Shown one piece after another: positions 13,514-31,585 of a stretch of 38,781 nucleotides of DNA; position 1 is the first letter of the stretch; the number at the start of each line of letters is the position of its first letter. The notes beneath the pieces were generated by a model that worked only from the letters and a program-made list of their open reading frames with translations, was not told the DNA's origin and made no database searches. This DNA is from Planctomycetia bacterium (lineage in GTDB: Bacteria; Planctomycetota; Planctomycetia; Pirellulales; PNKZ01), in contig JAIOPP010000164.1 of NCBI GenBank assembly GCA_021413845.1, forward strand, positions 1-38,781, in the 5' to 3' direction. A program made the position numbers and the translations under genes.

Positions 13514-14036
13514 CAATCGGCCTCCGAATACGGTATCGGCGAGTGGATTCACACACCGTGCCCTTAACCTATCGACACGCTCCGATGGAAACAAGAGTGT
13601 ATCGGTGCCCACTCACGGCTTCGCGACGACTACCCCTTAAACAAGCGTATGCCGCCCGTCGGTGGTCGCGGCGAACTTGCCTGAAGGCGCAGACGTGGAG
13701 CGAGCTGTCCGTCGCGTTGCGGATGACATGAGGCGTCGGCTTGTCGGTCGGACATGCTGCGGGGTCATTTCTTGATTCGGCGTTTCGTCGAATCTTTTCG
13801 ATCGGTGGGATGGAAGCCTGCGTGTGAGGTCGACGTCAAGCCCGCCATAGCGACCTTCATCCCGTTTCTTGATCCAAGGCACCTTTAATCGGAACGGAAT
13901 CACCCCGGAGGACGAGGAATCGTTTTCGCCGTCCACACCGCATGCATCTCCGAATTGATTTGACTATGGCGGTAGTCGTCGAATACGATCTGCCTATGGA
14001 TGTAGTCAGTCTTGTTCGTCTCCCGGTAAAATTCCC
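13514..14036. other. Intergenic stretch with a decayed coding remnant
   Basis: Lies between the minus-strand DUF1501 gene and the BlaI gene, which diverge. 13514-13636 shows nothing I can identify. The rest is the decayed remnant described separately. I looked for a BlaI-type dyad (TACAnnTGTA-like) near 13990-14020 and found only an imperfect half-site, which lies inside the remnant. Confidence 0.4.
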
Positions 14037-14040
14037 ATGC
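13637..14040 (-). pseudogene. Decayed coding remnant of unknown family
   Basis: Read on the minus strand, 14040-13900 gives a convincing protein segment: AWEFYRETNKTDYIHRQ, then IVFDDYRHSQINSEMHAVW, ending TAKTIPRPPG and a stop. Further along, in a second frame, KPTPHVIRNATDSSLHV appears, and a third frame carries SAPSGKFAATTDGRHTLV and a stop at 13637-13639. These pieces read as one C-terminal region broken by at least two frameshifts. I do not recognise the family. It overlaps the promoter region and first codon of the plus-strand BlaI gene. Confidence 0.45.
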
Positions 14041-14435
14041 CCGAATCGAAAGCAGTTCTCGGCTCCACTGAAATCGAGATTCTCCGTTATCTGGGCGACC
14101 GACCGGCGATGAGCGTGGGCGAAGTGGCCGATCATTTCGCGCGGACGACGGGCCAGGCCCGAACTACGATCCTCACGATCATGGAGCGCCTGCGAAAGAA
14201 AGGGCATCTCACGCGGAAGCAAGTCAAAGGGGTGTATCACTACTCACTTAAGGTCGCCAAGCAAGACTTTCTGCGCGGGTTGGTGCGGTCGTTCGTCGAT
14301 ACGACGCTCGGCGGATCGGTGTCGCCGTTCGTGGCCTACCTCTCCGAAAGCGGACCGTTTTCCGATCAAGACCTCACCCATTTGAAACAACTTGTTCACG
14401 ATCTCGAACAAGAACGGAAGCGAGGTGGCAAATGA
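14037..14435 (+). CDS. BlaI/MecI/CopY-family repressor (132 aa)
   Basis: A short winged-helix regulator. Residues 10-70 form the DNA-binding domain (STEIEILRYL, then SVGEVADHF, then the recognition segment ARTTILTIMERLRKKGHL), followed by a wing with GVYHYS and a C-terminal dimerisation helix. In this family an M56 membrane peptidase cleaves the repressor between the two domains when a signal is sensed. The stop overlaps the start of the M56 gene by ATGA, so the two are translationally coupled, as blaI-blaR1 pairs are. ATG 14037 is the only plausible start; the ribosome site is weak. Typical targets are its own operon. Here the likely regulon is the long plus-strand run downstream, which is inference. 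Confidence 0.93.
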   Translation: MPESKAVLGSTEIEILRYLGDRPAMSVGEVADHFARTTGQARTTILTIMERLRKKGHLTRKQVKGVYHYSLKVAKQDFLRGLVRSFVDTTLGGSVSPFVAYLSESGPFSDQDLTHLKQLVHDLEQERKRGGK

Positions 14436-16351
14436 GCTTCGACGGCGACCTACTCGATCTGTGGGGCGCGGCGATGTGGCGCGCGAGTTGGCAGGGTGGG
14501 CTCGCGGCCTTGGTCGTCGCCTTCATGTGCCGACTCAGGCCTTCGATTCCAGCGCGCTATCAGTGTTGGATGTGGCGGCTCGTGATGTTGAAGTTCGCGG
14601 TTGCTTTCGTGTGGTCGGTGCCCGTCGAAATACCGGTGCTCCCTAGTGCCGATCCGATCGTGTCTGCCGCCGTCGATTCGCCGATCCCATTTAGCCACAT
14701 GTCGAGCGACGACACACCGACCGTCGACGAGCGGTCTCCGAGCAACGTCCCATTGCTGCTGATTCCTTTTGCGACTTGGGCCGTGATCGTCGCCTGGCAA
14801 TTGGGTCGCATTCTGGTCTCTTGCCGAAACGCTCGGCTGCTCAAGAATCGTTGTCGGGCGAGCGAAGATCGTCAACTTCTCGACCCTTGTTCGCGATTAA
14901 GCGCAATGCTCGGTCTCCGGAGTCCGCCGCTTGTGCTGGAAACAGAAGGACAAGGAAGTCCGCTCCTCGTCGGCATACTGCGGCCGGCCATCGTGCTTCC
15001 GACCACGACGCTGGAGCGACTGGATGCCTCGGAACGTTCGCTCGTGCTCGGCCATGAGTTGGCACACGTCAGTCGCCGCGACCTCTTTTGCAGTCTCGTC
15101 TCCGCGATGATTCGGGCGTTGTTCTTTTTCCATCCCGCGGCGTGGTTCAGCGAGCGACGGCTCGGCCTCACGCAAGAAATCGCCGCCGATCAACTCGCGA
15201 TATCGCTGCAGAATCAAAGCCCGGTCCATTACGCCCAGATTCTCTTGGCGATCGTCGGCAAGCTAGGCTCCGGTCGAACGGCTCACATGATGTCCATGGG
15301 AGCCGCGGGTGAAGCGGGCTCGCTCTACCGTCGATTGTCGGCGATGCGATACGTCCAGCGGACGACTCCCGGAGTCGTCCTGGCTTACGGCCTACTGATC
15401 GGGTTCGGCGCCATGCTCGGACTTGTGCCATGGTCGCTCGTCGCAGCGCCGGCGGCGGCAGCGGAAGAGACCAAGCCCACGGAACGGAAGGAGCAGTCGG
15501 AAGCTATCGTTAACGGACGATACGTCTCCTTCCAAGAGGGTGTCCTGAAAGTAAAAGTGCGCGACGATCAAAGCGACGTCGAGACGGAGCGAGAATGGAA
15601 CGTCGCCGAAGACGTCAACGTCGTCAGCCATCATCGTGCGGGACCGAAGCAATCGATTGCCCGAGATGCTTTTAAGCAATGGGAACCGGGAGGGTTGATC
15701 GCCGTGACGCTGAACGACGGCAACGTCGTTTTCATCAAGCTTGGTACCGATAAAGTGCGGGTGCCGAAGTCTGTGCGATCACGTGAGTCGTCTCTCGAAA
15801 AGAAGGTGGATCATAGGATCGATGCAAACTCGAAAATGCATTGGGGGCGATTCACATCGTTCAAGAACGGTACGCTCACACTTGAGTCGAACTCCGGTGA
15901 GCTGATCGAAACCAACGTCGTCCGAAAGACCAAAACCACGGAGTGGAGCGACACGTCCGGCAAGTTCGTGCCGACGGATACCTTCGTGGCTTTAAGGCAA
16001 CTCAAGGTCGGCACGGTGATCGTCGTCAACGGCGCGAACCAGAGCGGAACTCTCCGCATCGGATCGCGCAAAGGAGTTACGATCGGCACCTTCGTATCGT
16101 ACGAAAACGACCGACTGCTGATGCTCGGCAAAAACCTCGGTGAGCGTTTCACTAAGAAGTACGGAAACAACGTTCACTTCAACAAGTTCCGCGACGACGT
16201 TCCTGCCTATGAGAGCATCGACGGCGGTGAGTACCGGCCGATCGGTATGGCCAACGAGGCGCTGCGCAACGTCAAGGAAGGAACGATTCTCCATGTGCAT
16301 AGCGAGGGAGACGACAACATCACCCTCGTTCGGATCGGCGAAAAGAAGTAG
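14432..16351 (+). CDS. M56 BlaR1-like sensor peptidase with modular ectodomain (639 aa)
   Basis: An integral membrane zinc peptidase paired with BlaI. Predicted membrane segments lie at about 18-36, 46-63, 106-127, 222-237 and 311-337. The zinc site is HELAH at residues 208-212 (E209 catalytic) and QEIAADQ around 248 (E249 the third ligand). After the last membrane segment comes an Ala-rich linker and an ectodomain of about 295 residues. This is not a penicillin-binding domain: it is built from three modules that each open with a G-[RT]-[FY]-x-S-[FY] word (about residues 363, 472 and 552) and close with a GT/GG-hxxV...I-hxhG strand. The third module is closely similar to the C-terminal half of the next protein (shared FTKKYGNN, ESIDGG, VKEGT, GxxNITL). 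In BlaR1 the ectodomain binds the inducer; by analogy this one binds an unknown extracellular signal. Confidence 0.9.
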   Translation: MSFDGDLLDLWGAAMWRASWQGGLAALVVAFMCRLRPSIPARYQCWMWRLVMLKFAVAFVWSVPVEIPVLPSADPIVSAAVDSPIPFSHMSSDDTPTVDERSPSNVPLLLIPFATWAVIVAWQLGRILVSCRNARLLKNRCRASEDRQLLDPCSRLSAMLGLRSPPLVLETEGQGSPLLVGILRPAIVLPTTTLERLDASERSLVLGHELAHVSRRDLFCSLVSAMIRALFFFHPAAWFSERRLGLTQEIAADQLAISLQNQSPVHYAQILLAIVGKLGSGRTAHMMSMGAAGEAGSLYRRLSAMRYVQRTTPGVVLAYGLLIGFGAMLGLVPWSLVAAPAAAAEETKPTERKEQSEAIVNGRYVSFQEGVLKVKVRDDQSDVETEREWNVAEDVNVVSHHRAGPKQSIARDAFKQWEPGGLIAVTLNDGNVVFIKLGTDKVRVPKSVRSRESSLEKKVDHRIDANSKMHWGRFTSFKNGTLTLESNSGELIETNVVRKTKTTEWSDTSGKFVPTDTFVALRQLKVGTVIVVNGANQSGTLRIGSRKGVTIGTFVSYENDRLLMLGKNLGERFTKKYGNNVHFNKFRDDVPAYESIDGGEYRPIGMANEALRNVKEGTILHVHSEGDDNITLVRIGEKK

Positions 16352-16477
16352 TAGTTCCCAATAAGCCGGATGGCCTGCTTCGTGCCTTACTTCCGCGCTC
16401 CGTTGTCGTAAGCATTCCGTCCGATTACATCATCGATTTCCCGCACATTCGAACTCTTTCTTGTGAGATCATCCGCC

Positions 16478-17221
16478 ATGCGTTTTACGATTTCTTCAAC
16501 TCATTCGTTCGCAATGCTATTCGCAATCGTCACCGTAACGAGCCCGGCTGCGTGGACCTTCGCACCGGGTTCCGCATCGGCCGCCGATAAGCCTGGGGCG
16601 GAGAAGCCCGCGGCAGCGCTCTCGCAACTCGAGATCGGCAAAGGGAACTTCGTGTCGTTCGCGGAGGGAGTCTTGACGCTCGACGGAAGTATTCGTCTCT
16701 CGGCGACGAGCAAAGGGAGCACCGGCCTCGTCGTCTGGAAGAACATCGACGACAAGACGAAGGTCTACGTCGTAGCCGGCGAAGATAAAGGGCCGGACCG
16801 TGGCTATAAGCCGGCTCCGGCACTTGAAACGCTCAAGAGCGTCAAGCCGGGGACGCCGATGTTCGTCGGCCCGTGGTTCGCCTATCAAGATCGGCCGGGA
16901 ATCTTTGTCGGCGTCACCAAGGCGCGCACGGTCGGCACGTTCGTTTCGTACACGACGGGAAGCAAGTCGAGCGGCCTGACCATGCTCGGCAAGGATCTGG
17001 CGCCGAGCAGCTTTACCAAGAAGTACGGCAACAACTTGTTCATTCGCAGCATTCCCGAAAACACGCCGGTGGAAGAAAGCATCGACGGCGGGCCCTATCA
17101 GCCGATAGGCACCGTGAAAACGGTGTTGAAGGATGTTAAGGAAGGGACGCTCCTCACCGTCCATACTCACGGCGAGGGGAACATCACGTTGATCCAACTC
17201 GGCTTGCCCAAGGAAAAGTAA
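16478..17221 (+). CDS. Secreted protein sharing the M56 ectodomain module (247 aa)
   Basis: After a signal peptide (about residues 1-40, ending SASAAD) the protein has two modules of the type seen in the preceding M56 ectodomain: one opening GNFVSFAEGVLTL and one opening GTFVSYTTG. The second module matches the last M56 module nearly end to end (MLGKDL, FTKKYGNNLF, EESIDGGPYQPIG, VKEGTLLTVHTHGEGNITL). No catalytic motif is visible. ATG 16478 is used because it begins the signal peptide directly; the in-frame GTG at 16463 adds five residues. It lies 126 bp after the M56 gene and 58 bp before the G8 gene on the same strand. A role as soluble competitor, ligand carrier or co-sensor for the M56 protein is inferred from the shared module. 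Confidence 0.85.
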   Translation: MRFTISSTHSFAMLFAIVTVTSPAAWTFAPGSASAADKPGAEKPAAALSQLEIGKGNFVSFAEGVLTLDGSIRLSATSKGSTGLVVWKNIDDKTKVYVVAGEDKGPDRGYKPAPALETLKSVKPGTPMFVGPWFAYQDRPGIFVGVTKARTVGTFVSYTTGSKSSGLTMLGKDLAPSSFTKKYGNNLFIRSIPENTPVEESIDGGPYQPIGTVKTVLKDVKEGTLLTVHTHGEGNITLIQLGLPKEK

Positions 17222-17279: not shown

Positions 17280-19655
17280 ATGTTGAAGGTGATATCGACG
17301 GTCGTCGTGTTAGCGTTCTCAACCGTGACGATCGCCGCGGAGTCGGTGTCGTTTCAAGCGCGCACGGTGCAAAGCGGCAGCTGGTCCGACAAGAGCACCT
17401 GGGAGAGCGGCCGCGCTCCGCAGGCCGGCGATTTCGTTCAAGTTCGTGCCGGGCATGCTGTCACTTACGACGTGCATTCCAGCGTCGCGCTGCGCATGGT
17501 CCATGTGGCAGGAACACTGAGCTTCTCGCGCACGATGTCGACACTGATGGACGTCGGCTTGCTGAAGATCGAACCGGGTGAGACGACGACCGAAGACGGT
17601 TTCGATTGTCACGCCGCGCCGGTGGCTGCGCCGAAAGGTTCCCATGGGCACTCGCATAGTCAAGTCGCGGCCATGCCGCCGCCGGCATTAGAGATCGGCA
17701 CGCCCGCCGAACCGATTCCGGCCGGCATTCAAGCGACGATCCGCTTGCGATACCACGCCGGAACGAACAAGGAAACGTTGCCGGCGATCATTGCCTGCGG
17801 CGGCCGTTGGGATGTTCATGGCGCGCCGCTCGCTCGCACCTGGTTGAAGCTCGCCGCGGCGGCGAAGCCGGGAGATGCGCGGATCACTCTGGAGCAAGCG
17901 CCGGCCGATTGGCGCGTCGGCGATCGAATCATCGTCACGACCGGCGTTGCGAACGGGCCGGGCCCGTTCGCAACGTTTCGCAAGAGCGGCGGCAGGCCCA
18001 AGCCGGTGGGGACGGAAGAACGCGTGATCACAGCCGTCGAAGGAACGGTGCTCCTATTGAATCAGCCGCTGGAGAAGTCGCATGTCGGCGACGGCTTCAA
18101 GCGGTCCGAAGTGGCGAATCTGTCGCGCAACGTCGTCATCGAATCGGCACAAACGGCCGGCGAGCGCGGACATACGATGTATCACTTCGGCTCCTCCGGC
18201 GGCATCAGCTACGCCGAATTTCGACACTTGGGAAAAGAGGGTGTGCTCGGCAAGTACCCGATTCACTTCCATCTCGTGCGCGACACGATGCGCGGCAGCG
18301 GAGTACTCGGGGCGAGTGTTTGGGATTCGCACAACCGCTGGATCACCGTACACGGAACCGATCATCTGCTGATCCGCGATTGCGTCGGCTACCAATCCCT
18401 CGGACACGGCTACTTCCTGGAAGATGCGACCGAGCAGTGGAACGTGTTCGATCGGAACCTCGCCGTGCAAGCGTTCAACACGACGCCGTTGCCGCGGCAA
18501 GTTCTGCCGTACGACCCGAACGACGGGGCGGGCTTCTGGTGGGCCAACGGCCGCAACACGTTCGTGCGCAACGCCGCCTGCGAAAACGATCACTACGGCT
18601 ACCACTTTCAGGTCGCCGCGGCCGGCGGCTTCGATCCCGTGCTCACCTTGCTCGGGCCCGACGGCACAACCGCGAAACGCGACGTGCGGCGAATTCCGCT
18701 CCTCCGCTTCGAAGACAACGAGTCGCACGGCGAAGGTCTGTACGACTTCCGCTTCGGCGACGAAACCGACCTCGGCGTGGCCGGGGATCGCGAGCATCCG
18801 TTCATCGTGCGACGGCTCAAAGCGTGGGACTCGCATTATGTGATTCGGCCGAACGTGCGCTATTTTCTCCTCGAAGGGCTGATGGCCGAGAATGCCGCCT
18901 TCGGCATCTATCACCCGAACTACGACGAGCATGTCTACCGCGATGTGGCGCTCGCCAACGTGAAGCAGGAACCGCTGAACGGCGGCCACGATGAAGAGAG
19001 CCTCGCGCGCGGCAACTACACGTTCGAACGTCTGACGCTCACCGCCAGCAAGCTTAAGAACGACCCGCTGATTCAATTGACGGGGATAGGAATCAAGCCG
19101 GATCTCTTCGGGCACTTCCGCAACGTCCTGACCGCGAGCAGCTCTTCGAATTCGGGAGGGATCGTTGATTTCGGCGGCGGCCCGAGGACGAACCGTGTCG
19201 AGAACTGCGTAGCTTACTACTTCCACGACACGCCTAAGTCCGGCACGACGATGCGCGTGGCGCCGGTGAAGGCGAAGGAGTTGTTGAAGACCGGTAACTA
19301 TCAAAGCATCGCCGGCTGGACGGGGCCGGATGCTTTGGCGGCCGAAGTCAACGTCGGAGACTTTCCGAAATTGGTCAAACCGGTCGACGATCTACCGCCG
19401 GCAACGTTGATTACCGGCGTAGAGCGAGCCGGCGACAAGTGCGTCGTACGGGGAGTCGCTCATGACGACGGCGAAATCGCTGCGGTTACCGTCAACGGAC
19501 TTCCGGCGACGATCATCGCGCAGCAGGCCGGAGTCGCCGATTGGACGATCACGCTCGATGCTCCAAGCGACGGTCGCTACGTCGCGCAAGCGAAGGACCT
19601 CGCCGGAAATCAAGAATCGATGACTCACACACTGACTTCTCAGGCAGATCGCTGA
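17280..19655 (+). CDS. G8-domain right-handed beta-helix protein, CEMIP/TMEM2-like (791 aa)
   Basis: After a signal peptide (residues 1-20) a G8 domain opens with GSWSDKSTWESGRAPQAGD, the characteristic G8 beginning, and includes the His-rich word HGHSHS around residue 124. A long right-handed beta-helix follows (about 230-680) with the word YPIHFHLV around 326-333, also found in the animal G8 proteins CEMIP, TMEM2/CEMIP2 and PKHD1L1. A C-terminal Ig-like segment (about 705-790) closes the protein. CEMIP and TMEM2 depolymerise hyaluronan, so a glycosaminoglycan or polysaccharide substrate is plausible, but the activity of bacterial members is not known to me. ATG 17280 has GGAG eight bases upstream. 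It is followed 74 bp later by the 1009-residue gene. No damage is seen. Confidence 0.85.
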   Translation: MLKVISTVVVLAFSTVTIAAESVSFQARTVQSGSWSDKSTWESGRAPQAGDFVQVRAGHAVTYDVHSSVALRMVHVAGTLSFSRTMSTLMDVGLLKIEPGETTTEDGFDCHAAPVAAPKGSHGHSHSQVAAMPPPALEIGTPAEPIPAGIQATIRLRYHAGTNKETLPAIIACGGRWDVHGAPLARTWLKLAAAAKPGDARITLEQAPADWRVGDRIIVTTGVANGPGPFATFRKSGGRPKPVGTEERVITAVEGTVLLLNQPLEKSHVGDGFKRSEVANLSRNVVIESAQTAGERGHTMYHFGSSGGISYAEFRHLGKEGVLGKYPIHFHLVRDTMRGSGVLGASVWDSHNRWITVHGTDHLLIRDCVGYQSLGHGYFLEDATEQWNVFDRNLAVQAFNTTPLPRQVLPYDPNDGAGFWWANGRNTFVRNAACENDHYGYHFQVAAAGGFDPVLTLLGPDGTTAKRDVRRIPLLRFEDNESHGEGLYDFRFGDETDLGVAGDREHPFIVRRLKAWDSHYVIRPNVRYFLLEGLMAENAAFGIYHPNYDEHVYRDVALANVKQEPLNGGHDEESLARGNYTFERLTLTASKLKNDPLIQLTGIGIKPDLFGHFRNVLTASSSSNSGGIVDFGGGPRTNRVENCVAYYFHDTPKSGTTMRVAPVKAKELLKTGNYQSIAGWTGPDALAAEVNVGDFPKLVKPVDDLPPATLITGVERAGDKCVVRGVAHDDGEIAAVTVNGLPATIIAQQAGVADWTITLDAPSDGRYVAQAKDLAGNQESMTHTLTSQADR

Positions 19656-19697
19656 CCGTCTCCATTCTCCGCGGTTAACCTACCGATCGAGCCCGCC

Positions 19698-19733
19698 ATG
19701 AAACATAACTTCAGCCAAAAGGTATCAACATGA
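19698..19733 (+). CDS. Possible 11-codon leader ORF
   Basis: ATG at 19698 opens an 11-codon frame (MKHNFSQKVST) ending in a TGA that overlaps the ATG of the next gene at 19730. The ribosome site of that gene (AAAAGG, seven bases before ATG) lies inside it. It may couple translation or be chance; nothing else supports it. Confidence 0.2.
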   Translation: MKHNFSQKVST

Positions 19734-22700
19734 AGAATCGCATCGCTCACACAGCGGCTTCGGTTCTCTTCACGCTAGCTCTTTGCGCCCCCATGCGTGC
19801 CGCCGAACCGATCGAGGTGTTTCGCACGGGCGACGAGCTCATCGTGCGGCTCGATCGATTCGATCTGCTTCGCCAAGCGAACCGCGGCTTGACTGCGGAG
19901 TTGAAACTGCGCGGGGAAGGAAAAGAAAAGGATCTGCTGATCGATCTGTCCGACCCGGCCGTCAACGGCACGCTCGTGATCGATCTCTCAAAGTTCGGTA
20001 ACTGCTCGGGAATGAGCATCGCAGTGAAGGATGCCGGCGGAAAGTCGATCGTCGCGAAGACGGCTTCGCCCATCGTGGAAGCTCCGGTGAAAAGCGGCTT
20101 CTCGACCTCGGCGACCGGTCCCTTTGCCTTTATCGAACCGGGCACGGCGATGAGCGCCGCACCGGCGGGCGCAAGTGCGCCGAAGATACAGCTTCCCGAC
20201 GTGAAGACGCTCCGAGCCGTGCAAATCGAATCGCCGAAGCGTTCCGTCTCGAAGCAAGACATCACCTACCCGGTAATTACGGAAGGGGAAGCTCCGTTGC
20301 GGGGTGGCGTTGCCTTGTTGAGCCGGCAGACGGCTGCACCGAAGGATCCGACGAAGGCCAGCTTGTACATCACCTACAAGAAGGCGCTTTACGAAGGGAC
20401 GAAGCTGGCCCGCTGGCAAAAATTCTTGGTGGAGATTCCCATTCAAGAATCTTGGGGCAGAGGGCAAGGGGATGAGACGGTGAATCTCGGCAACGATGTT
20501 CTCGTCCATGTCACGAGCGAGGTGAAAGAGAAGGATTGGCGAGGGGTTCAACGCAATATTCTCGGCGAGGGAGACGATGATCTCGGCCAAACTCTTTCCG
20601 CCATCGATGACGAAGGCCGCATCTATTTCATCGCCGAGTATCGCGTGGTCCGCTTCGACCCGAACACGAAAAAGTTCGAGATCTCGCCGCCGTTCGAATT
20701 GCAGAAGTTATGTCCCGGCGGCGCTGTGATGAAGGGTTCGCCCGGATGGCTGAGCGGCAACTGGACGATGGTCTGCGGGCATGGCCGTGTTTTTATCGTC
20801 GATATCCTCGACTTGAAAACGGGACCCAATTTGGGCGATTTATCGCAGCGACGAATCGGCGGGCTCTTTTCGATCCCGCAAGATTGGCGCGATGCGCAGG
20901 CGTTCGCCGCCGATGTTCGACTGCATGTCGGAACCTGGGAGACTGCCACGCCTACGCTCTACAAGACCGGGCCGACGATCGGCGCTGCGGCGGACGAACG
21001 GAAACTCGGCAAGCCCATGGTCACCGAAGCCGGCCTCTTGATTGTCCCGGCGGGAAAACAATCCGCCGGCGGTCCTTGGCGGCTCGACCTCGACGACCAA
21101 GGAAACAACAAAGCTTTCGGTGAGGTCAATTCACTCTCCGATACGGTCTCGAAGGATGGCAGCACCACGTTCGCCCCGACGCAAGAAGCCACGATCAACG
21201 GCGTCAGCAAGACGATGCTGCATCTCGTCAGTACCGGCTACGGCCGTCGCTTGGTCGGCGCTGCCGGAACCGATGGGCTGGAGATTCCTCGTGCTTCCAT
21301 TCGACAACTTTTGATGAGCGACGGGTGGAATGCCTCCATGCTTCATCGGCCCTCGTCAGAAGATAAATATTGGACTTACGCCGACGCCCCTAAAGGGACC
21401 GTGACGGTGAAGTATGAAGTGGTCGAGAAGTTGAAGGCCAATCCGGATGCGCAAGGCGCGCTGGCCGATTCATTAAAAGGCGGACCGAGCCTCGGGCCCG
21501 TCTTCCTCATCACACCGGTTCCCGGCGTACCGGATAAGGCCGTCGGGGTGAGCGAGTATGCAATTTATCCTTTGGCTACGTTCGATTTCTCCAAGCTGGA
21601 AGAGAAACGGGCCGTGACTAAAACGGCGTTGCCCGGCAAGGCGGCGCTCGCCGTCGGAGTAGGCCCCTACGACTCCGGTTGGGTCAAGCAAGGTGACGAG
21701 CAATGGCTTTATGTCACCGGTTACACGGGCATGACTAAGATCAAATACGCCGCGGGCGGCAAAGTCTTAGACGTCATGACGTCGGACCAGTTTCACAGAC
21801 GTCTGGCGGCAGTGCCGGTGGATCAGCATGCGCGCGAAGGCTTAAAGCAATACGATCGAATCTTCCCGGTGTTCGGCGGTCGATTGATGGATTCCGGCAC
21901 CGGACGTTCGGGCCGCGGGGGAACGCCGTTCTCTACCGGGCTGGAGCTCTTCGATCCGAAGCAACTCGGCGCCGACGCGACGTCGGGCTCCGTTCCCAGT
22001 CAAACGGCCGCCTACATGAACCGCTGCTGCGGCGCACTTCAGACCCTGCAAAGCCGGCTGATTTGGAACGCACACAACGGGAGCCGTCGGCAGGAGATCT
22101 TCGGTACCGGCAAGCCGAACCCGGTGTTCGTAGAAGAACTCGGAGTCAAGGACAAAGCTCTACTCCCGAGCAACTTAGACGAAAAGGTCTTCTGCTACGA
22201 AGTTGCCGAGAACGACGGGCTACGCGACCTCTTCGGCTTTTCGTTACCTGTCTCGGAGAACGGCGCGAGCGCCGGGAGCTATCTGGCTCTCTCTCCGTGT
22301 AGTCGATTTCTGCTCGTCCTTATGAGCGACGGCTCGCTCTATTCGTACGCCATCGCCTCGAAGCAATTCATCGACGGCGTGCACTTGACGACGCCGTCCG
22401 GCGACGCCGTCGCGACGATCGGCTTTAGGCGACCCGGCGAGCGTATCATCACCGCGCCCGACGGCGGGCAATTCTTCTTGACCGCCCCGGCCGAAAACAC
22501 CGGAACGAAGGTGCAGTTCAATCGCATCGCAGTGGGCAACGACGGTCGCTTAAGCATCGAGCCGTACCTGGGGATCGAGTGCGCGAGTAGTGCCGACTGG
22601 CAAGATCTCGAGAACTGCGTCCGCTGCTTCATGCCCGATCTGAAAAACAAAGACGGCTCGATCGACTTTGTCATCGGCTGGGACTCCAAGGATCGCGACC

Positions 22701-22759
22701 AAGCGAAGCCGTTCGTGAGGGTGATCAAGGATTTCATTCCCTCGACTGCGGGCCGATAG
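19730..22759 (+). CDS. Large exported protein, unrecognised (1009 aa)
   Basis: I do not recognise a family. The protein starts with a clear signal peptide (residues 1-25, ending MRAAEP) and has no other membrane segment. Residues 25-120 form a small beta domain. The rest, from about 250, has many strand-turn patterns of propeller type with GRIYFIAEYRVVRFDP, GRVFIVDILDLKTG, WLYVTGYTGMTKIKY and LVLMSDGSLYSYAI, each resembling a blade in which a quantity is displayed along a value track. A cysteine pair (RCC) lies near residue 765. No catalytic motif is visible. ATG 19730 has AAAAGG seven bases upstream. It sits in the plus-strand run between the G8 protein and the sialidase-like protein, so a role in surface glycan handling is a guess from context. 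Confidence 0.8.
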   Translation: MKNRIAHTAASVLFTLALCAPMRAAEPIEVFRTGDELIVRLDRFDLLRQANRGLTAELKLRGEGKEKDLLIDLSDPAVNGTLVIDLSKFGNCSGMSIAVKDAGGKSIVAKTASPIVEAPVKSGFSTSATGPFAFIEPGTAMSAAPAGASAPKIQLPDVKTLRAVQIESPKRSVSKQDITYPVITEGEAPLRGGVALLSRQTAAPKDPTKASLYITYKKALYEGTKLARWQKFLVEIPIQESWGRGQGDETVNLGNDVLVHVTSEVKEKDWRGVQRNILGEGDDDLGQTLSAIDDEGRIYFIAEYRVVRFDPNTKKFEISPPFELQKLCPGGAVMKGSPGWLSGNWTMVCGHGRVFIVDILDLKTGPNLGDLSQRRIGGLFSIPQDWRDAQAFAADVRLHVGTWETATPTLYKTGPTIGAAADERKLGKPMVTEAGLLIVPAGKQSAGGPWRLDLDDQGNNKAFGEVNSLSDTVSKDGSTTFAPTQEATINGVSKTMLHLVSTGYGRRLVGAAGTDGLEIPRASIRQLLMSDGWNASMLHRPSSEDKYWTYADAPKGTVTVKYEVVEKLKANPDAQGALADSLKGGPSLGPVFLITPVPGVPDKAVGVSEYAIYPLATFDFSKLEEKRAVTKTALPGKAALAVGVGPYDSGWVKQGDEQWLYVTGYTGMTKIKYAAGGKVLDVMTSDQFHRRLAAVPVDQHAREGLKQYDRIFPVFGGRLMDSGTGRSGRGGTPFSTGLELFDPKQLGADATSGSVPSQTAAYMNRCCGALQTLQSRLIWNAHNGSRRQEIFGTGKPNPVFVEELGVKDKALLPSNLDEKVFCYEVAENDGLRDLFGFSLPVSENGASAGSYLALSPCSRFLLVLMSDGSLYSYAIASKQFIDGVHLTTPSGDAVATIGFRRPGERIITAPDGGQFFLTAPAENTGTKVQFNRIAVGNDGRLSIEPYLGIECASSADWQDLENCVRCFMPDLKNKDGSIDFVIGWDSKDRDQAKPFVRVIKDFIPSTAGR

Positions 22760-22854
22760 CCGACACGCGTGGGCCGATGATATTTCATTTCCAGCGATCG
22801 AAACTCGATCCTGAGAAGCCGGTCGAAGAACTTACATTCCACTAGGAGCGCAGC

Positions 22855-24201
22855 ATGGCGGCACGAAAACACTTGTATCTGGTGATCGGTTTCGTTTGCT
22901 GCTTAGGCGCAGCTACGGGACAGTCGAGTCTACACGCCGAGGAGAAAGCTCCTAAAGTCGCCGGCAGTCCACTGTCGACCATGCCCGACTATACGATCAA
23001 ACTCGACACGATCACCTCCGGCTTCGACGGTAAGACCTGCTGGGTGGCGCCGCGCGCAGGAATCGTGCCGGGAAAGAGTCCGGATTCGACTCCGAGCGTC
23101 GTGCTGACGATGCAGAAGCTGTGGCTTAAGGGAAGCGACGTTTTCTTTGCCGTAAATGAAGTCCGCACCGATGATCTCGGCAAAACATGGTCGCCGCCGC
23201 TAGAGCATGCGACGTTGGATCGACGCAAGGAGCCGAACGGCGTCGAGATCATCGTCGGCGATTTCACATCGAAGTGGCATGCGCAAACCGGCAAGCTTTT
23301 GGGAACCGGCCCGACCGTACGCTACCAGAAGAACGCCGCCGGCGCGGAAGTGAAGATCAATCAAAACGATGCCCCATCGCGCGCGGCGTACTCCGTTTAC
23401 GACCCGCAGCAGCGCTCGTGGACGCAATGGGAGATGGTCGTCATGCCCGACGATCCCAAATTTTTCTACGCGACGGTCGGGGCAAGTCAGCGCGTCGATC
23501 TCCCGAATGGCGAGCTCCTCTTGCCGTTTCACTTCAAGACGAGCGGCCAGAGCCCGTACCACACCTCGGTGATGCGCTGCTCGTTCGACGGCAAGAAGCT
23601 CGCCTACATCGCGCACGGCGACGAACTCTCGCGACCGACGGAGCCGGGGGTCGAATACAAGCAACCGGCGGGGCGACAGACGGGCGTCTTCGAACCGTCG
23701 CTGACTCGCTTCCGCGGGCGCTACTATCTGACCATGCGTAACGATCGCGCGGCGTACGTGGCGACCTCGGACGACGGTCTGCGTTACGGCGAGGTCAAAC
23801 GCTGGCGCTTCGACGACGGCGGGGATCTCGGCAGCCGAAACACTCAACAACATTGGGTCACGCATAGCAACGGCCTGTTTCTCGTCTACACGCGAGTCGG
23901 CGCGAACAACGATCACGTCTTCCGCAACCGCGCGCCGCTGTTCATCGCCCAAGTCGATCCGGAGAAGCTGCAAGTAGTCCGCGCCACGGAGCGAATTTTG
24001 ATTCCCGAGCGAGGGGCGGGACTGGGTAACGCCTTCGGTGTCACCGAAGTCAGCCCGAACGAAACCTGGGTCACCACGGCCGAGTGGATGCAAGGACCGA
24101 AAGGTATTTCGGTTCCAGGAAACAAGTACGGTTCGGACAACAGCGTCTACGCCGCGCGCATCGTCTGGAAGACTCCGAATCGAGATTGGGATGCTCGATA
24201 G
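22855..24201 (+). CDS. Exported sialidase-like (Asp-box) protein (448 aa)
   Basis: A signal peptide (residues 1-29) is followed by a beta-propeller of sialidase type. One clear Asp-box-like word is RTDDLGKTW (about residue 103), and weaker strand repeats follow, such as YVATSDDGLRYG. The start of the propeller carries DTITSGFDGKTCWVAPRAG, used in related planctomycete proteins annotated as sialidase superfamily. The FRIP/YRIP arginine motif of true GH33 enzymes is not seen, so this may bind or cleave a different glycan. ATG 22855 has AGGAG six bases upstream. The next gene, a sialate O-acetylesterase, starts 48 bp after its stop. Confidence 0.75.
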   Translation: MAARKHLYLVIGFVCCLGAATGQSSLHAEEKAPKVAGSPLSTMPDYTIKLDTITSGFDGKTCWVAPRAGIVPGKSPDSTPSVVLTMQKLWLKGSDVFFAVNEVRTDDLGKTWSPPLEHATLDRRKEPNGVEIIVGDFTSKWHAQTGKLLGTGPTVRYQKNAAGAEVKINQNDAPSRAAYSVYDPQQRSWTQWEMVVMPDDPKFFYATVGASQRVDLPNGELLLPFHFKTSGQSPYHTSVMRCSFDGKKLAYIAHGDELSRPTEPGVEYKQPAGRQTGVFEPSLTRFRGRYYLTMRNDRAAYVATSDDGLRYGEVKRWRFDDGGDLGSRNTQQHWVTHSNGLFLVYTRVGANNDHVFRNRAPLFIAQVDPEKLQVVRATERILIPERGAGLGNAFGVTEVSPNETWVTTAEWMQGPKGISVPGNKYGSDNSVYAARIVWKTPNRDWDAR

Positions 24202-24249
24202 CTCCGTGCTCGAGGCAAACAATCATTCCATGAAATCGCAAGGCAACGA

Positions 24250-26112
24250 ATGAACATCAATCTGCTTGGGGCGTTGATTTGCTTGTTGTCGATGACGGCC
24301 ACCTCGCGTTTCGGCATGGCTCAGTCTGTGAACGAACTAACCGATGGCTCGCCGGTCACCGACCTCGGCGGAGATCGTTGGACGAGCCGAGTCTTCAAGA
24401 TCTTCGTGCCGGTTAACCAGACTCGACTCACTATCACTACCCGAGGAATAGCGACCGGAAGAGAAGCGGGCGTGACGTTGTATGCGAAGCACGGAGCGAC
24501 GCCGACGACTACGGTCAACGACGCGCGCTCCGGCGTTGTCGGCAACAACGAGCGGATCTCCATCGCCGACCCGAAGGCTGGGGATTGGTATCTTCTACTC
24601 TACGCGACGACGGCCTATGGGCGCGTGACTCTGTCGGCCGACTACGACGACGCTCCGCCTGCCCCGACACCGCCGCCGGTTTTGACTGCGGCATCGGTGT
24701 TCAGCGACCACATGGTTCTTCAGCGGAATCAGCCGGTTCCCATCTGGGGAACGGCGAAGCCCGGCGACACGGTCACCGTGACGCTCTCTCCGCAAGGGCC
24801 GGCACCGATTAACCCGCCGGCGACCGTCGCGACTAAAGCCGATGGGAACGGCAGGTGGCGAGTTGAAATGGCTCCGCTGAAAGCCTCGTCGCAGCCGATG
24901 GACGTGCGCATCACTTCGGCGGCCGGCGATCCGGCCGCGGTCATGACCGATGTTCTCGTCGGGGAGGTGTGGGTGGCGTCTGGCCAGTCGAACATGGAGT
25001 GGCCGATCTACAAGTGCAGCAACGGTGCGGCGGATATCGCCGCTGCCGACGATTCGCAATTGCGCCTGCTGACGGTCCCGCTGGGCGTCAGCACCACCGG
25101 GCCGCGCGCCAGCATGCCGTTGCAATACAACGGCACCCCGAGCAAATGGAGGCTTTGCACGCCGGCCAACATCCCGAACTTTTCAGGCGTGGCTTACTAC
25201 TTTGCGCGAGATCTGCGCAAAGCTTTGGGAATCCCGGTGGGTGTGATCTATCAAGCGATGGGAGGGACGACCTGTCGGGCTTGGTCGCCCCGCAGTGCGT
25301 TTACCGGCGATCCCATGGTAGAGAAATACCTCGCCGACTGGGACGCAAGAATCAGAAACTGGAACGCCCAGTGGGGCTCCGATCCGGCAGAGGACGTCAA
25401 CCGGCCGATGGTGCTCTACGACGCGATGATCGCGCCCCTGCAGCCGTATGCCATCCAAGGTGTGATTTGGTATCAGGGAGAATCCGACTCCGGCGATGCG
25501 GTGACTTTCCGCCACTTGTTTCCGTCTCTGATCAAGAGTTGGCGCAGAGAGTGGGGAGTTCGCGATTTCCCGTTTTTATTCGTTCAAGTCGCGCCTCACA
25601 ACGGCTGGACGCCCGAGCTTCGCGAGGCCCAACTGCAGACATGGCAAACTGTGCCGAATACCGCCATGGTAGTCACGACCGACGTCGGTCCCGTTGATCC
25701 CAAGGATTTTCATCCGCCGAACAAGCAGCCGGTCGGCTCGCGTCTCGCACTGGCGGCGCGGGCGCTGGTCTACGGCGAGAGCCTCGAATACTCCGGACCG
25801 GTCTACGCTTCGTGCGCGTCCGACAACGGCCGCGTGATCGTTCGATTTACCCATGCCGCCGGCGGATTGAAGACGGGAGACGGCAAGGCGCTCAGAGGCT
25901 TTACCATCGCCGGTGCCGACGGCGTGTTCGTCGATGCCGAGGCGGTGATCGAGGGCGACTCCGTGGTTGTAAGCAGCCCCAGCGTGCCGACGCCGAAGGC
26001 CATGCGCTATGGGTGGGCGAACATGCTGAGCTGCAACTTGGCCAACGGCGAAGGATTGCCTGCCAGTCCGTTTCGTGTCAGCGAGCTAGCCGCGCAAAAG
26101 CCCGTTAAGTAG
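24250..26112 (+). CDS. Sialate O-acetylesterase with N-terminal PPC-like domain (620 aa)
   Basis: Removes O-acetyl groups from sialic acids in characterised relatives, exposing them to sialidases. After the signal peptide (about residues 1-24) a pre-peptidase C-like domain spans 28-135 (YLLLYATTAYGRVTLSADY is its last strand). The esterase begins with the family opening SVFSDHMVLQRNQPVPIWG. The nucleophile block is GQSNMEW (S247), WYQGES is at 407-412, and the likely catalytic His is H488 in DFHPPN. ATG 24250 has AAGG seven bases upstream. The GH33-type sialidase follows 61 bp after, a functional pairing. A diverged copy of this gene's last 90 codons lies at 27482-27739 as a pseudogene. Confidence 0.93.
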   Translation: MNINLLGALICLLSMTATSRFGMAQSVNELTDGSPVTDLGGDRWTSRVFKIFVPVNQTRLTITTRGIATGREAGVTLYAKHGATPTTTVNDARSGVVGNNERISIADPKAGDWYLLLYATTAYGRVTLSADYDDAPPAPTPPPVLTAASVFSDHMVLQRNQPVPIWGTAKPGDTVTVTLSPQGPAPINPPATVATKADGNGRWRVEMAPLKASSQPMDVRITSAAGDPAAVMTDVLVGEVWVASGQSNMEWPIYKCSNGAADIAAADDSQLRLLTVPLGVSTTGPRASMPLQYNGTPSKWRLCTPANIPNFSGVAYYFARDLRKALGIPVGVIYQAMGGTTCRAWSPRSAFTGDPMVEKYLADWDARIRNWNAQWGSDPAEDVNRPMVLYDAMIAPLQPYAIQGVIWYQGESDSGDAVTFRHLFPSLIKSWRREWGVRDFPFLFVQVAPHNGWTPELREAQLQTWQTVPNTAMVVTTDVGPVDPKDFHPPNKQPVGSRLALAARALVYGESLEYSGPVYASCASDNGRVIVRFTHAAGGLKTGDGKALRGFTIAGADGVFVDAEAVIEGDSVVVSSPSVPTPKAMRYGWANMLSCNLANGEGLPASPFRVSELAAQKPVK

Positions 26113-26173
26113 CGGCTCATGGCAAGAGTGAAGGACTATGTGTCTCCTATCCGGTCGTCCGCGGAGGTGTGTG

Positions 26174-27307
26174 ATGAAGATGAAGTCGATGTGGTTGGCA
26201 GTCCTGGGTTGGTCGATGGTCATGAGCGTTGCCACGGCCCAGTCGCTCGAGAAGGTCGATGTTTTTGTCGGTGGTGAGAATGGATACTTTGCCTATCGTA
26301 TTCCGTCGCTCATAACCACCAAAGTCGGGACGCTGCTCGCCTTTTGCGAAGGACGCAAGGCGAGCCTGAGCGATGACGGCGATCACGACCTCGTGTTGCG
26401 TCGCAGCACCGACCATGGCCGTACGTGGCAGAAACTTCAACTCGTGCATGAAGAAGGGGGCGACGCCGTTGTGACGATCGGCAATCCCACCGCCGTCGTC
26501 GATCAATCGACGGGCCGTGTGTGGCTGTCGATGATCCGCAATAATATTGCCGTATATTCCGTATTGATCACGTTCAGCGACGACGACGGGGTCAGCTGGG
26601 CACCGGTCAAAGACATCACCGCACAAACCTCGCGACCGAGTTGGGGTTGGAACGCGCTCGGTCCCGGCGTGGGGATTCAACTCACACGCGGACCGCATCG
26701 TGGCCGGCTTGTGCTGCCGGCGTACCATCGTGAGACGAAAGATCGCAGTGGTCCGAGTACGTCGCATGTCGTTTACAGCGACGATCATGGCCAAACGTGG
26801 CAAGTCGGTGGCAACGTCGGCTTGCACACTAATGAATGTCAATTGGTCGAGACGGTCGCCGGCGACAGTTCCGAGTTGCTCATCAACATGCGCAACCATT
26901 GGGCCCAATCGGGCGGTCGGCCCGAATTGGCCGGCCGACGTCTCGTGAGTCGCAGTCGCGATGGCGGCGCTACGTGGAGCGAACCGGTGCGCGACGAGCA
27001 GCTTATCGAACCGAAGTGTCAGGCGAGTTTGATTCGGTTTGCTTGGCCCGGCGACCAAGAGAAGAGCGTGTTGCTATTCGCAAATCCTGACAGTCTTTTG
27101 AAACGGCATCGGACTACGGTTCGAGCAAGTTTCGACGAAGGCAAGACTTGGCCGATGAGCCGGTTGATCGACGGCTGGTCGGGCTATACCGGCTTAACTC
27201 GGTTAGCCGACGGACGCATCGGGCTCATCTACGAACGCGAACGCTCTCAAAAGATTACGTTCGTGGCGATCGGGCTCGGCTCGTTGAGTGCGACACCGGC
27301 TCCATAA
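26174..27307 (+). CDS. Exo-alpha-sialidase, GH33-type (377 aa)
   Basis: Releases terminal sialic acids from glycans. The signal peptide covers residues 1-22. YRIP at 41-44 gives the family arginine (R42), followed by EGRKASLSDDGDHDLVLRRS, the segment that carries the catalytic Asp in this family. Five Asp boxes are visible: STDHGRTW, SDDDGVSW, SDDHGQTW, SRDGGATW and SFDEGKTW, one per propeller blade region. The length fits the compact bacterial enzymes with no lectin module. ATG 26174 is chosen because GGAGG lies six bases upstream; the frame is open to 26138. It is placed between a sialate O-acetylesterase and repeat D. No damage is seen. Confidence 0.93.
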   Translation: MKMKSMWLAVLGWSMVMSVATAQSLEKVDVFVGGENGYFAYRIPSLITTKVGTLLAFCEGRKASLSDDGDHDLVLRRSTDHGRTWQKLQLVHEEGGDAVVTIGNPTAVVDQSTGRVWLSMIRNNIAVYSVLITFSDDDGVSWAPVKDITAQTSRPSWGWNALGPGVGIQLTRGPHRGRLVLPAYHRETKDRSGPSTSHVVYSDDHGQTWQVGGNVGLHTNECQLVETVAGDSSELLINMRNHWAQSGGRPELAGRRLVSRSRDGGATWSEPVRDEQLIEPKCQASLIRFAWPGDQEKSVLLFANPDSLLKRHRTTVRASFDEGKTWPMSRLIDGWSGYTGLTRLADGRIGLIYERERSQKITFVAIGLGSLSATPAP

Positions 27308-27400
27308 AACGAGTTATCGATCGCAATTAGACAGCGCGTGCAAGAGGCCTTGCGTCAGCTACAGATACCGTGACCTGGAGCGAGTATCGCTGGCCGGGCC

Positions 27401-27454
27401 GAGATGACCGGAACTCGCGTGCAAAAGTACGGAACGCCGTGACGCTCAACACGG
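27401..27454 (-). repeat. Dispersed repeat core, copy D
   Basis: Read on the minus strand it begins ccgtgttgagcgtcacgg and continues cgttccgtacttttgcacgcgagttccggtcatctc in two parts matching copy A. The run ttccgtacttttg is identical to copy A. Its GTGTTG end faces the truncated 5' end of the esterase fragment at 27482-27739 and merges with the hairpin at 27451-27480. Confidence 0.75.
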
Positions 27455-27480
27455 CCGTCAGTTATACGACTGACGGCCGT
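27451..27480. repeat. Perfect 12-bp inverted repeat (hairpin)
   Basis: acggccgtcagt at 27451-27462 and its exact complement actgacggccgt at 27469-27480 flank the six-base loop tatacg. There is no T tract after it, so a classical terminator is not indicated. It lies exactly at the junction of repeat D and the esterase fragment. Confidence 0.8.
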
Positions 27481-27481
27481 T

Positions 27482-27739
27482 GCCACCGGCGGGGTGAAAA
27501 CATGAGACGGCAAGGCAGTAAAAGAGTTTACCGTCGCCGGAGCCGAAGGAGTGTTCATCGATGCCGAGGCGGTGATCGAGGGTGACACCGTGGTCGTGAG
27601 CAGTCCCACCGTGCCGACTCCGACGTCGGTGCGCCATGGATGGGCCAACGTGCCGAACTGCAATTTAGCCAACAGTGTAGGATTGCCTGCCAGTCCGTTT
27701 CGCGTGAGCGAGGTAACGGCGCATAAGCCCTTGAAATAG
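27482..27739 (+). pseudogene. C-terminal fragment of a second sialate O-acetylesterase
   Basis: The frame from 27482 reads ATGGVKT-stop-DGKAVKEFTVAG, then VFIDAEAVIEGD and LPASPFRVSEVTAHKP. It matches the last 90 or so residues of the intact esterase at 24250-26112 (there AAGGLKTGDGKALRGFTIAG and LPASPFRVSELAAQKP). The TGA at 27503-27505 stands where the intact gene has GGA (Gly). Everything before the KTGDGK segment is missing, and upstream lie a perfect hairpin and repeat D. The nucleotide match is about 80 percent by eye, so it is an old duplication and not a recent one. Confidence 0.9.
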
Positions 27740-27851
27740 CCGCCGCCGAATCACGATGATTGCAATGAGCCAGTCGTCGAAAAATTACGGCTTCCTTGTC
27801 AACGTTTCGTGATGTTTTCGCTTCCAAAGTGCGCGTCGCGTGAGGAATTGT

Positions 27852-30473: not shown

Positions 30474-30526
30474 CGCCGGTGCCTACGTCGAGTCACTATT
30501 CCCTTTCTTGAGAGATATGACGGTCG

Positions 30527-31585
30527 ATGATGCAGCAACTCTACGTAATCTCCGCCTGCTTCGCCGGGCTGGTTTCAGTTGCGAACGAACCGCCGCCGGC
30601 CGCCGCGCCGTTCGATGCCGGACAGGCCCGAGCCTATCAAGAGTCGTGGAGCAAGCACTTGGAACAGCCGGTAGTTGTGACGAACTCGATCGACATGGCG
30701 CTCGTTTTGATGCCACCGGGCGAGTTCATGATGGGAGGTGCGCCCGGGTTGCTCATGGAGACCGCCGCATGGGCCGATACCAAGCGGCAGTCGCCGCCGG
30801 GAGCCGAACGAACCCGAATCGAGAAAGACGAGCAGCCTAGCCATCGCGTAAAGCTCACCAAGCCGTTTCGACTCGGCGCGACCGAAGTAACCATCGGCCA
30901 GTTTCGGCGATTCGTCGAGGCGACGCGCTACGTGACCGAGACCGAGACCGAACGCTTCGGCGGCGGCAACTCCAGTAAGATCGGCGAAACCGCGCCGGAG
31001 AAAAAGAAGGCGCTTTGGCACACGCCAGGGCTCAAAGTCACCGACGACTCGCCGGTGACTCAGCTCACATGGAACGATATGGCGGCGTTCTGCAATTGGC
31101 TGAGCGAGAGCGAGAAACGATCCGCCTGCTACCGGCTCGACGACCGGAAAGCGTATCAACTCGTCGCCGGCGCCGATGGCTATCGGCTTCCGACCGAGGC
31201 TGAATGGGAATACGCCTGCCGAGCCGGAACGACCACGCAGTATTGGTTCGGCGACGATCGCAAACTACTGGTGAATCACGCGTGGTTCGAAGACAACGCC
31301 GACCATCTAGGCGCTCAGCCCGTCGGGAAGAAACCGGCCAATCCCTTCGGGCTTTACGATATGTCGGGCAATGTCTGGGAACGCTGCCAAGATTGGCACG
31401 ATGCCGCGTGGTATGCCCGTAGCCCGATCGACGATCCGCAGGGACCGGAGACAGGCGGAGCCAAAGTCGTGAGGGGCGGAGCTTGGCACTACTTCGATCT
31501 TCATTGCCGCAGCGCCTATCGCAACAACTACAAACTCACGGCTCGCACGGCCAACACGGGTTTCCGCGTCGCGCGAAGCCCATGA
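30527..31585 (+). CDS. SUMF1/formylglycine-generating-enzyme-fold protein (352 aa)
   Basis: A signal-like N-terminus (residues 1-20) precedes the sulfatase-modifying-factor fold. The typical opening is MALVLMPPGEFMMGG, then PSHRVKLTKPFRLGATEVT, the WNDMAAFCNWLS segment, YRLPTEAEWEYACRAGT and the end GLYDMSGNVWERCQDW, VVRGGAW, NTGFRVAR. The two active-site cysteines of true formylglycine-generating enzymes are not in their usual positions; only HCRSAYR is present in the last part. It is therefore safer to call it a member of the fold than an FGE. No sulfatase gene is in the window. Its stop overlaps the next gene by ATGA, so it is coupled to the DUF5009 membrane protein. ATG 30527 is followed at once by another ATG. 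Confidence 0.88.
   Translation: MMQQLYVISACFAGLVSVANEPPPAAAPFDAGQARAYQESWSKHLEQPVVVTNSIDMALVLMPPGEFMMGGAPGLLMETAAWADTKRQSPPGAERTRIEKDEQPSHRVKLTKPFRLGATEVTIGQFRRFVEATRYVTETETERFGGGNSSKIGETAPEKKKALWHTPGLKVTDDSPVTQLTWNDMAAFCNWLSESEKRSACYRLDDRKAYQLVAGADGYRLPTEAEWEYACRAGTTTQYWFGDDRKLLVNHAWFEDNADHLGAQPVGKKPANPFGLYDMSGNVWERCQDWHDAAWYARSPIDDPQGPETGGAKVVRGGAWHYFDLHCRSAYRNNYKLTARTANTGFRVARSP

Follow-up and report, generated by a model that had tools for sequence, protein, structure and literature searches.

A rare variant of the BlaI-M56 switch with a modular sensor in a Planctomycetia bacterium

The window analyzed here is a stretch of 38,781 nucleotides from a Planctomycetia bacterium of the order Pirellulales (GenBank assembly GCA_021413845.1, contig JAIOPP010000164.1, positions 1 to 38,781 of the forward strand). 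It contains a gene for a BlaI-type repressor, a gene for an M56 sensor-protease that ends in three small modules, and a gene for a secreted protein built from two modules of the same family. The locus is a real, rare variant of the BlaI-M56 switch, and there is a good case, drawn from the sequences, that its secreted gene and those of a related locus look like detached 3' ends of M56 genes, with the last membrane helix reused as a signal peptide. A preliminary description of the window had located the three genes correctly, and Pfam families PF03965 and PF05569 confirm the first two; the apparent derivation of the secreted genes from M56 3' ends, the operator-like pair, and the linkage to a G8-domain gene had escaped it.

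The switch genes and their operator-like dyads

The features of the repressor, sensor-protease, and secreted genes are as follows.

13960..13989, plus strand: sigma-70-like promoter TTGACT-18-TACGAT, which spans dyad 1 and stops just before dyad 2
13961..13978, no strand: operator-like dyad 1 (TGACTATGGCGGTAGTCG, one mismatch); its left arm shares bases with the -35-like TTGACT
13991..14008, no strand: operator-like dyad 2 (TGCCTATGGATGTAGTCA, one mismatch), 30 bp downstream of dyad 1
14037..14435, plus strand: BlaI-type repressor, 132 aa; Pfam PF03965 (Penicillinase_R), E 3.6e-22; gapless alignment with Staphylococcus aureus BlaI 1sd4
14432..16351, plus strand: M56 sensor-protease, 639 aa; PF05569, E 4.8e-34, aa 15-304
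15053..15067, plus strand: zinc motif HELAH (aa 208-212); third ligand presumed in EIAAD, aa 249
15371..15427, plus strand: last transmembrane (TM) segment of M56 (aa 314-332), from hydropathy; a signal-peptidase-like VAAPAAAAEE stretch follows
15509..15754, plus strand: M56 module 1 (M1), A-prime type, aa 360-441, from the module hidden Markov model (HMM)
15839..16072, plus strand: M56 module 2 (M2), A type, aa 470-547, from the module HMM
16082..16348, plus strand: M56 module 3 (M3), B type, aa 551-639, with FTKKYGNN / ESIDGG, from the module HMM
16478..17221, plus strand: secreted two-module protein; ATG start, GTG at 16463 also open; GC content at third codon positions (GC3) 0.75, like that of adjoining genes
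16478..16582, plus strand: signal peptide of the secreted protein, akin to the last TM segment of M56; cleavage point ASA-AD judged by eye
16640..16909, plus strand: secreted module S1, A type, aa 60-149, from the module HMM
16931..17212, plus strand: secreted module S2, B type, aa 157-250, from the module HMM

The BlaI and M56 genes of the window overlap by four bases, and the secreted gene likely starts at the ATG at 16478 rather than at the GTG at 16463. The repressor is a winged-helix protein of the Penicillinase_R family (PF03965 over aa 8-121), which the CopY/CopR family TIGR02698 also matches (E 2.3e-8, below the cut-off of that family). Membership of the protease in the M56 family is borne out by a PF05569 domain with HEXXH and a distal glutamate; the NCBIfam family blaR1_generic covers only aa 88-284 of the protein, at 58.9 bits against a cut-off of 400. 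As previously claimed, M56 lacks a penicillin-binding ectodomain: a Pfam scan of all 639 aa at E ≤ 1 found none, and nothing in the M56 tail or in the secreted protein exceeded the Pfam cut-off.

Module-bearing M56 genes were found at five loci. The window and C116 (L005) are paralogs in the same genome (G000); the others are L015 of G242, which belongs to the window's order (the L015 record is a Pirellula staleyi metagenome-assembled genome), and one locus each in G004 and G453. At all five, BlaI adjoins M56, and HELAH and E-x-x-A-D are kept in the M56 protein. Small-residue stretches, e.g., VAAPAAAAEE, follow the last TM segment of M56 proteins. A tree built from 30 M56 cores unites these five in a single clade (100/99). 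Among 57 related genomes searched, 40 have M56 proteins, with a maximum of 18 in one genome. Like the proteins described here, other planctomycete M56 proteins combine the M56 core with a C-terminal tail, which in 25 of 28 cases extends at least about 200 residues beyond the matched core; the module HMM found no module at any of these 28 loci (flanks of about 1.5 kb; 25 were long enough for the tree). It should be noted that in L015, a one-base shift at about position 4245, close to a CCCC run, interrupts the M56 frame immediately ahead of the last membrane segment, and that the downstream part is open from a GTG at 4277. The frameshift is either real or a sequencing error.

Two TGACTA-N6-TAGTCA dyads, with zero to one mismatch each and 28-30 bp apart, lie upstream of BlaI at all five loci; dyad 2 of the window begins just after the -10-like TACGAT. 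Such a pair (≤ 1 mismatch) is confined to BlaI promoters in the four module genomes, and none precedes the secreted, G8, and 1009-aa genes examined. The genome of the window has six dyad sites at ≤ 1 mismatch versus two for the reversed pattern. Four of the six constitute the two BlaI pairs, and the two further sites have no clear target gene. A perfect TGACTA-N6-TAGTCA dyad at G000:C127:34212-34229, apart from both BlaI-M56 loci, has no clear target gene. Elsewhere, dyad totals do not exceed those of the reversed-pattern control (3 vs 3 in G004, 10 vs 12 in G242, 4 vs 4 in G453, and 1 vs 1 in G003); an operator regulon in these genomes was rejected because single dyads are at control level. 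The promoter search is near chance by itself (2 sites found versus 1.0 expected in shuffles). For comparison with the dyad, the CopY/CopR operator consensus given in the abstract of PMC7253601 is TACANNTGTA. Judging from this arrangement, the genes probably form one autoregulated operon.

The sensor module and its distribution

The module HMM, a 19-row profile grown over seven proteins, finds 19 modules at E ≤ 2.2e-18 each, all of which are its own training rows. Five of them, those of the window, reach E ≤ 1e-20 with a joint profile to whose building they contributed, and the HMM ranges are close to those previously given for three M56 and two secreted modules. Two G453 modules from outside the training set score E 4.6e-17 and 6.6e-27. 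In the signature previously proposed for the modules, the closing "GT" is "GG" in M1. S2 clearly matches the last M56 module, M3, at 45 standard deviations (SD) over shuffles, but the likeness once called "almost end to end" amounts to about 50% identity (48 of 95 alignment columns) and is not that of a recent copy. The remaining nine pairs of window modules lie 1.4-6.6 SD over shuffles; the M2/S2 pair, taken by itself, is at noise level, with 52 of 500 shuffles equally good.

Two module types can be distinguished: type A has about 78 aa, and type B, with about 90 aa, is longer and carries SFTKKYGNN / ESIDGG; the labels A, A′, and B are our own. The order is A′-A-B in the M56 proteins of the window and L015, and A-B in those of C116, G004, and G453 as well as in the secreted protein of the window. 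L015 has seven secreted modules in two proteins, ordered A-B-A-B and A-B-B, in addition to three in M56. The B module of C116 has lost the KKYGNN signature. Altogether, 21 modules are known from five loci in four genomes. The search of planctomycete genomes that the preliminary description had called for places every one of them in an M56 protein or in the gene(s) directly after M56, and the secreted protein recurs beside M56 in a second genome, with two secreted module proteins directly after M56 in L015 of G242.

The system is rare. Its own genome has two PF05569 genes at E ≤ 0.001, and all seven module matches at E ≤ 10 fall in those two loci. The first profile matched 2 of 146 related genomes at E ≤ 0.01, the own genome counted. 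The 19-row profile matched 9 of 396 genomes of the order at the same threshold, three of them strongly (the own genome, G004, and G242); the other six, at E 0.006-0.008, were taken as chance. Two of 241 genomes of the G242 family (G242 and G453) were found at E ≤ 0.001, and an even draw of the phylum gave 1 of 392, the own genome. These genome sets overlap, and distant members may be missed because the candidates scored per genome were limited to at most 13 (order, phylum) or 21 (G242 family). A profile scan of genome contigs yielded a single locus, L015. The distribution is also patchy, since three congeners (G001-G003) have neither the module nor an M56 protein at E ≤ 1e-6.

None of the 19 modules scanned singly exceeded the Pfam cut-off (best E 0.026), and no family was matched by more than one module; the two G453 modules, scanned inside the whole protein, gave M56 and M48 matches alone. 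Against PDB sequences, the module profile gave six matches, to UHRF1 and to five chains of antibodies or nanobodies; none was better than E 0.79, and they were taken as chance. A penicillin-binding or catalytic identity, which the preliminary description had named as one outcome that would undo it, was rejected after the Pfam, NCBIfam, and PDB-sequence searches, with no such family matched. Its proposal of a modular sensor unlike that of BlaR1, together with a separate secreted form, is supported: the modules have no Pfam match over the cut-off and no credible PDB sequence match, and the soluble copy occurs at two of five loci. The decoy, ligand-delivery, and co-receptor designs that it suggested are candidate roles.

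The AlphaFold2 model of the secreted protein is middling (predicted local distance difference test score, pLDDT, 64.6), and that of the M56 A-B pair is good (pLDDT 85.5, predicted template-modeling score 0.75). Each module type is predicted to be a beta domain in which a single helix precedes the final two strands. A Foldseek search found nothing at E ≤ 0.001. In the VIA comparison, the best match of module A is the S-layer self-assembly domain 9fs9 (Z 8.5, 2.2 Å, 67 residues); OB-fold chains fill the list for module B, the best being the single-stranded-DNA-binding protein (SSB) Rim1 (Z 7.5, 2.6 Å, 72 residues). Z values in this range may mean merely a common arrangement. The modules may be small OB-like domains, as the models suggest. 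Homology to S-layer or OB-fold families is not claimed from these lists, and non-appearance in them likewise proves nothing.

These data bear on one view of the secreted protein, namely that it captures ligand beyond the inner membrane and then either hands it to the M56 ectodomain or associates with that ectodomain as a co-receptor, an arrangement that would raise sensitivity, not lower it. The A-B order is alike in secreted and anchored forms, the seven secreted modules of L015 together with the three in M56 would suit multivalent binding, and an S-layer self-assembly domain as the best structural match of module A is compatible with module-module contact. However, that Z value perhaps reflects merely a common arrangement, and G004 and G453 manage without a separate secreted gene; we regard capture of this kind as doubtful, if a serious contender. 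We prefer to see the secreted protein as a soluble binder of the sensor's ligand, and the origin of its gene is considered next.

Origin of the secreted genes and their downstream partners

Separate secreted genes occur at two of the five loci: one in the window, and two, sec1 and sec2, directly after M56 in L015. Their N-termini resemble the M56 stretch SLYRRLSAMRY, followed by the last membrane segment and LVPW.LVAA. When a last-TM profile is built solely from four M56 proteins, the three secreted N-termini come out on top (E 5.4e-5 for sec1, 6.8e-4 for sec2, and 1.2e-3 for the window); the best E among 191 other ORF (open reading frame) starts is 0.16. The control set comprised 196 entries, of which five represented the secreted genes themselves; the starts of L015 were counted twice because that locus is part of L076. 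Shuffle tests agree best with the TM profile for the two L015 proteins. Thus, sec2 reaches 6.7 and 7.0 SD against the window and C116 M56 proteins (0 of 1000 shuffles equal), and 0.6 and 1.5 against those of G004 and G453; sec1 reaches 3.9-5.1 SD against the intact M56 proteins, and comparisons with the two pieces of the broken L015 M56 range from -0.7 to 5.9 SD. All three secreted proteins retain the methionine of the AMR[FY] position. It is the start codon of sec1, likely that of the window gene, and lies inside the longest frame of sec2, the likeness of which to M56 begins further upstream (FYRRMF).

The M56 loop region aligns only weakly with BlaR1 (phmmer E 0.14, position counted by hand), and this alignment places the start point of the secreted genes just after the autocleavage loop. 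According to passages of PMC9834060, BlaR1 autocleaves at Ser283-Phe284, which yields a fragment of the last helix plus the sensor, and signal peptidase releases the sensor by a cut at Gly331, directly behind the last helix. By this alignment, the secreted gene would correspond to the C-terminal autocleavage fragment of BlaR1, with the helix as signal peptide. We tentatively put forward, as a possibility, that a shed receptor fragment became a gene of its own. On this view, copying of M56 3' ends began just past the autocleavage loop, the last membrane helix took on the role of signal peptide, and the resulting soluble sensor, encoded in the self-repressed operon itself, would act back on the receptor from which it came.

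The secreted protein had been described as a soluble copy of the sensor's own module, but the nearest relative of its module pair is the M56 of another genome and not that of the window: in a tree of nine A-B pairs, the secreted pair of the window groups with the G453 M56 pair (99/97), to which it is 55% identical over 165 columns. The first A-B pair of sec1 groups with sec2 (99/97), whereas the second is placed with M56 pairs at 93/94, a value below the tool's star. On this tree, the secreted label requires at least two changes, each of either direction. Since secreted forms occupy at least two positions, the exchange between anchored and secreted form may have happened again and again.

Duplicate 3' ends are easily made, and the copy is missing from three of five loci, which would fit functionless debris of a partial M56 duplication that happens to be open. 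Against this stand secreted genes in two genomes, with two to four modules each, and a window copy that is open, with coding-like GC3, and yet old, as judged from its 55% identity to, and grouping with, the G453 M56 pair. Chance debris is therefore disfavored and, in our opinion, very improbable.

Two further genes follow the secreted gene directly.

17280..19655, plus strand: G8/CEMIP-beta-helix protein, 58 bp downstream of the secreted gene; PF24606, E 3e-39, and PF10162, E 4.5e-11
19730..22759, plus strand: 1009-aa protein with no Pfam match at E ≤ 1

The protein at 17280-19655 has both the G8 domain and the CEMIP beta-helix and is thus CEMIP/TMEM2-like. At four of the five loci (the window, L015, G004, and G453), a gene of this type is the next one downstream of M56 or, where they exist, of the secreted genes; that of L015 is partial, being cut by the contig end. 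The four linked proteins form one clade (100/100) in a tree of 22 G8 proteins, from which L095 was dropped as a poor match and in which L098-L100 were not used. Of the 24 G8-search loci (L077-L100, with two genes each split over two loci), the window and G004 alone showed M56 or module sequence in flanks of about 1.5 kb, some of which are truncated at contig ends. The predicted likeness of the G8 partner to hyaluronidases, namely CEMIP (PMC10471826) and TMEM2 (PMC10474455), makes a glycan cue plausible.

The same-strand genes that follow in the window, up to 27307, encode the 1009-aa protein, two BNR (sialidase-like) proteins, the first of which is below the Pfam cut-off, and a SASA esterase. 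These genes may belong to the operon because the gaps are just 25-95 bp. A same-strand run with a possible role in glycan breakdown extends over 17280-32913 and adds an FGE-sulfatase-type protein and a weak HGSNAT-like acyltransferase. In G453, the G8 gene is followed (L075 12025-16293) by a sulfatase (PF00884), then a phage-type integrase (PF00589) and an IS66 transposase (PF03050); the latter two may bear on the patchy spread of the system. The paralogous BlaI-M56 operon of C116 (L005 2627-6022 and 6138-8867) has an IS200-like transposase (PF01797) upstream. Secreted and G8 genes are both missing after its M56, and an 86% identical homolog of the 1009-aa protein begins about 115 bp after M56 (L005 6022 to 6138) and runs into the contig end.

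The joint absence of secreted and G8 genes in C116, with the 1009-aa homolog directly after M56, would also suit secreted proteins that are accessory factors of the G8 enzyme or surface proteins, acting in glycan binding or assembly outside signaling, the shared modules reflecting a common ligand. The sensor modules of C116 have, moreover, changed faster than those of the window (29 vs 6 changes with L015 as outgroup, p 1e-4; 23 vs 7 with G004; 18 vs 8 with G453, p 0.076). However, the C116 core is also faster with the G453 outgroup (24 vs 5), and comparing core with sensor gives Fisher p values of 0.033 (L015), 0.22 (G004), and 0.34 (G453), so the change is not clearly sensor-specific and was not used as proof. 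G004 and G453, furthermore, have the G8 gene without a secreted gene. An accessory role outside signaling thus appears rather unlikely, and we continue with the secreted protein as part of the switch.

A candidate mechanism and related systems

We give about even chances to a single-operon, self-regulated BlaI-M56 switch with secreted copies that arose by partial M56 duplication and serve as soluble binders of the same ligand. In this scheme, the M56 modules would be exposed on the outer side of the membrane and recognize a ligand there, probably a glycan or some G8-linked product, whereupon the protease would cut BlaI and free the operon. The secreted genes would have arisen by duplication of part of an M56 gene, namely the stretch that begins right behind the autocleavage-loop region and ends with the stop codon; with the last helix turned into a signal peptide, the cell would make an already shed sensor. 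As a best guess, this protein rises on induction, binds the same ligand, and damps or shapes the response; if it is produced from the same operon, its level should track induction. We favor a soluble sink, with capture or a co-receptor role nearly as likely.

Several findings weigh against this reading. The Asn101-Phe102 scissile bond of BlaI is Tyr-Leu here (AYL is kept at all five loci), so that cleavage of BlaI is only assumed. C116, G004, and G453 lack a separate secreted gene; the copy is therefore optional and not essential to the circuit. The module-bearing M56 gene of C116 is not followed by a G8 gene before the next gene (the contig ends soon after), and hence G8 is not a strict partner. 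In the TM tests, the secreted N-terminus of the window is the weakest (0.6-4.1 SD in the shuffle test, with 3.7 and 4.1 but also 0.8 and 1.5 against intact M56 proteins), one of 42 control shuffle comparisons reached 3.8, and sec2 taken from its first methionine scores E 0.089, ahead of the controls but not significant. Finally, the module is known from just four genomes, and the comparisons accordingly rest on few events.

The S. aureus repressor and M56 protease are encoded side by side, and M56-BlaI systems are known mainly as beta-lactam sensors. The present system shares with BlaI-BlaR1 and MecI-MecR1 of S. aureus this side-by-side placement of the genes, the HEXXH + E zinc motif, and a last membrane helix followed by a C-terminal sensor, which here is presumably outside as well. 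Unlike in those systems, two to three small, predicted OB-like modules replace the penicillin-binding sensor, separate secreted sensor genes are present at two loci, Tyr-Leu stands for the scissile Asn-Phe of BlaI, and a G8 gene follows, with sialidase-like and acetylesterase genes further downstream in the window. CopY/CopR copper repressors belong to the same repressor superfamily as the window BlaI, which, in contrast, is encoded with an M56 protease. Periplasmic CusF and other OB-fold proteins likewise have a beta module with one helix before the last two strands, but this is fold resemblance only, with no sequence match and middling Z values (≤ 7.5 for B).

A scan of 40 further M56 regions revealed one other M56 protein, in L120, with a clearly similar nearby non-M56 protein. 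There (L120 5158-8322, G048:C381), BlaI and an M56 protein with a DUF1559 ectodomain adjoin a secreted DUF1559 protein about 55-56% identical over 192 aa. This neighbor is the best match to the DUF1559 tail in its genome, in which DUF1559 is a common secreted family; because non-M56 DUF1559 proteins elsewhere in that genome reach 48-51%, it is merely a hint of a soluble sensor copy. The scan also paired two M56 frames of L112 with one another, and a short ORF at L118 3-485 showed a weak 69-residue match (E 6e-4) to the tail of a neighboring M56 frame. No description of such a BlaI-M56 switch or of a soluble sensor copy was found in the open-licence literature, an absence that is not proof.

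The locus gives one M56-BlaI system a defined sensor module, a linked putative target enzyme, and a directly testable operator. It also offers a route by which a membrane receptor may acquire its own soluble copy, within a family in which shedding of the sensor is already documented.

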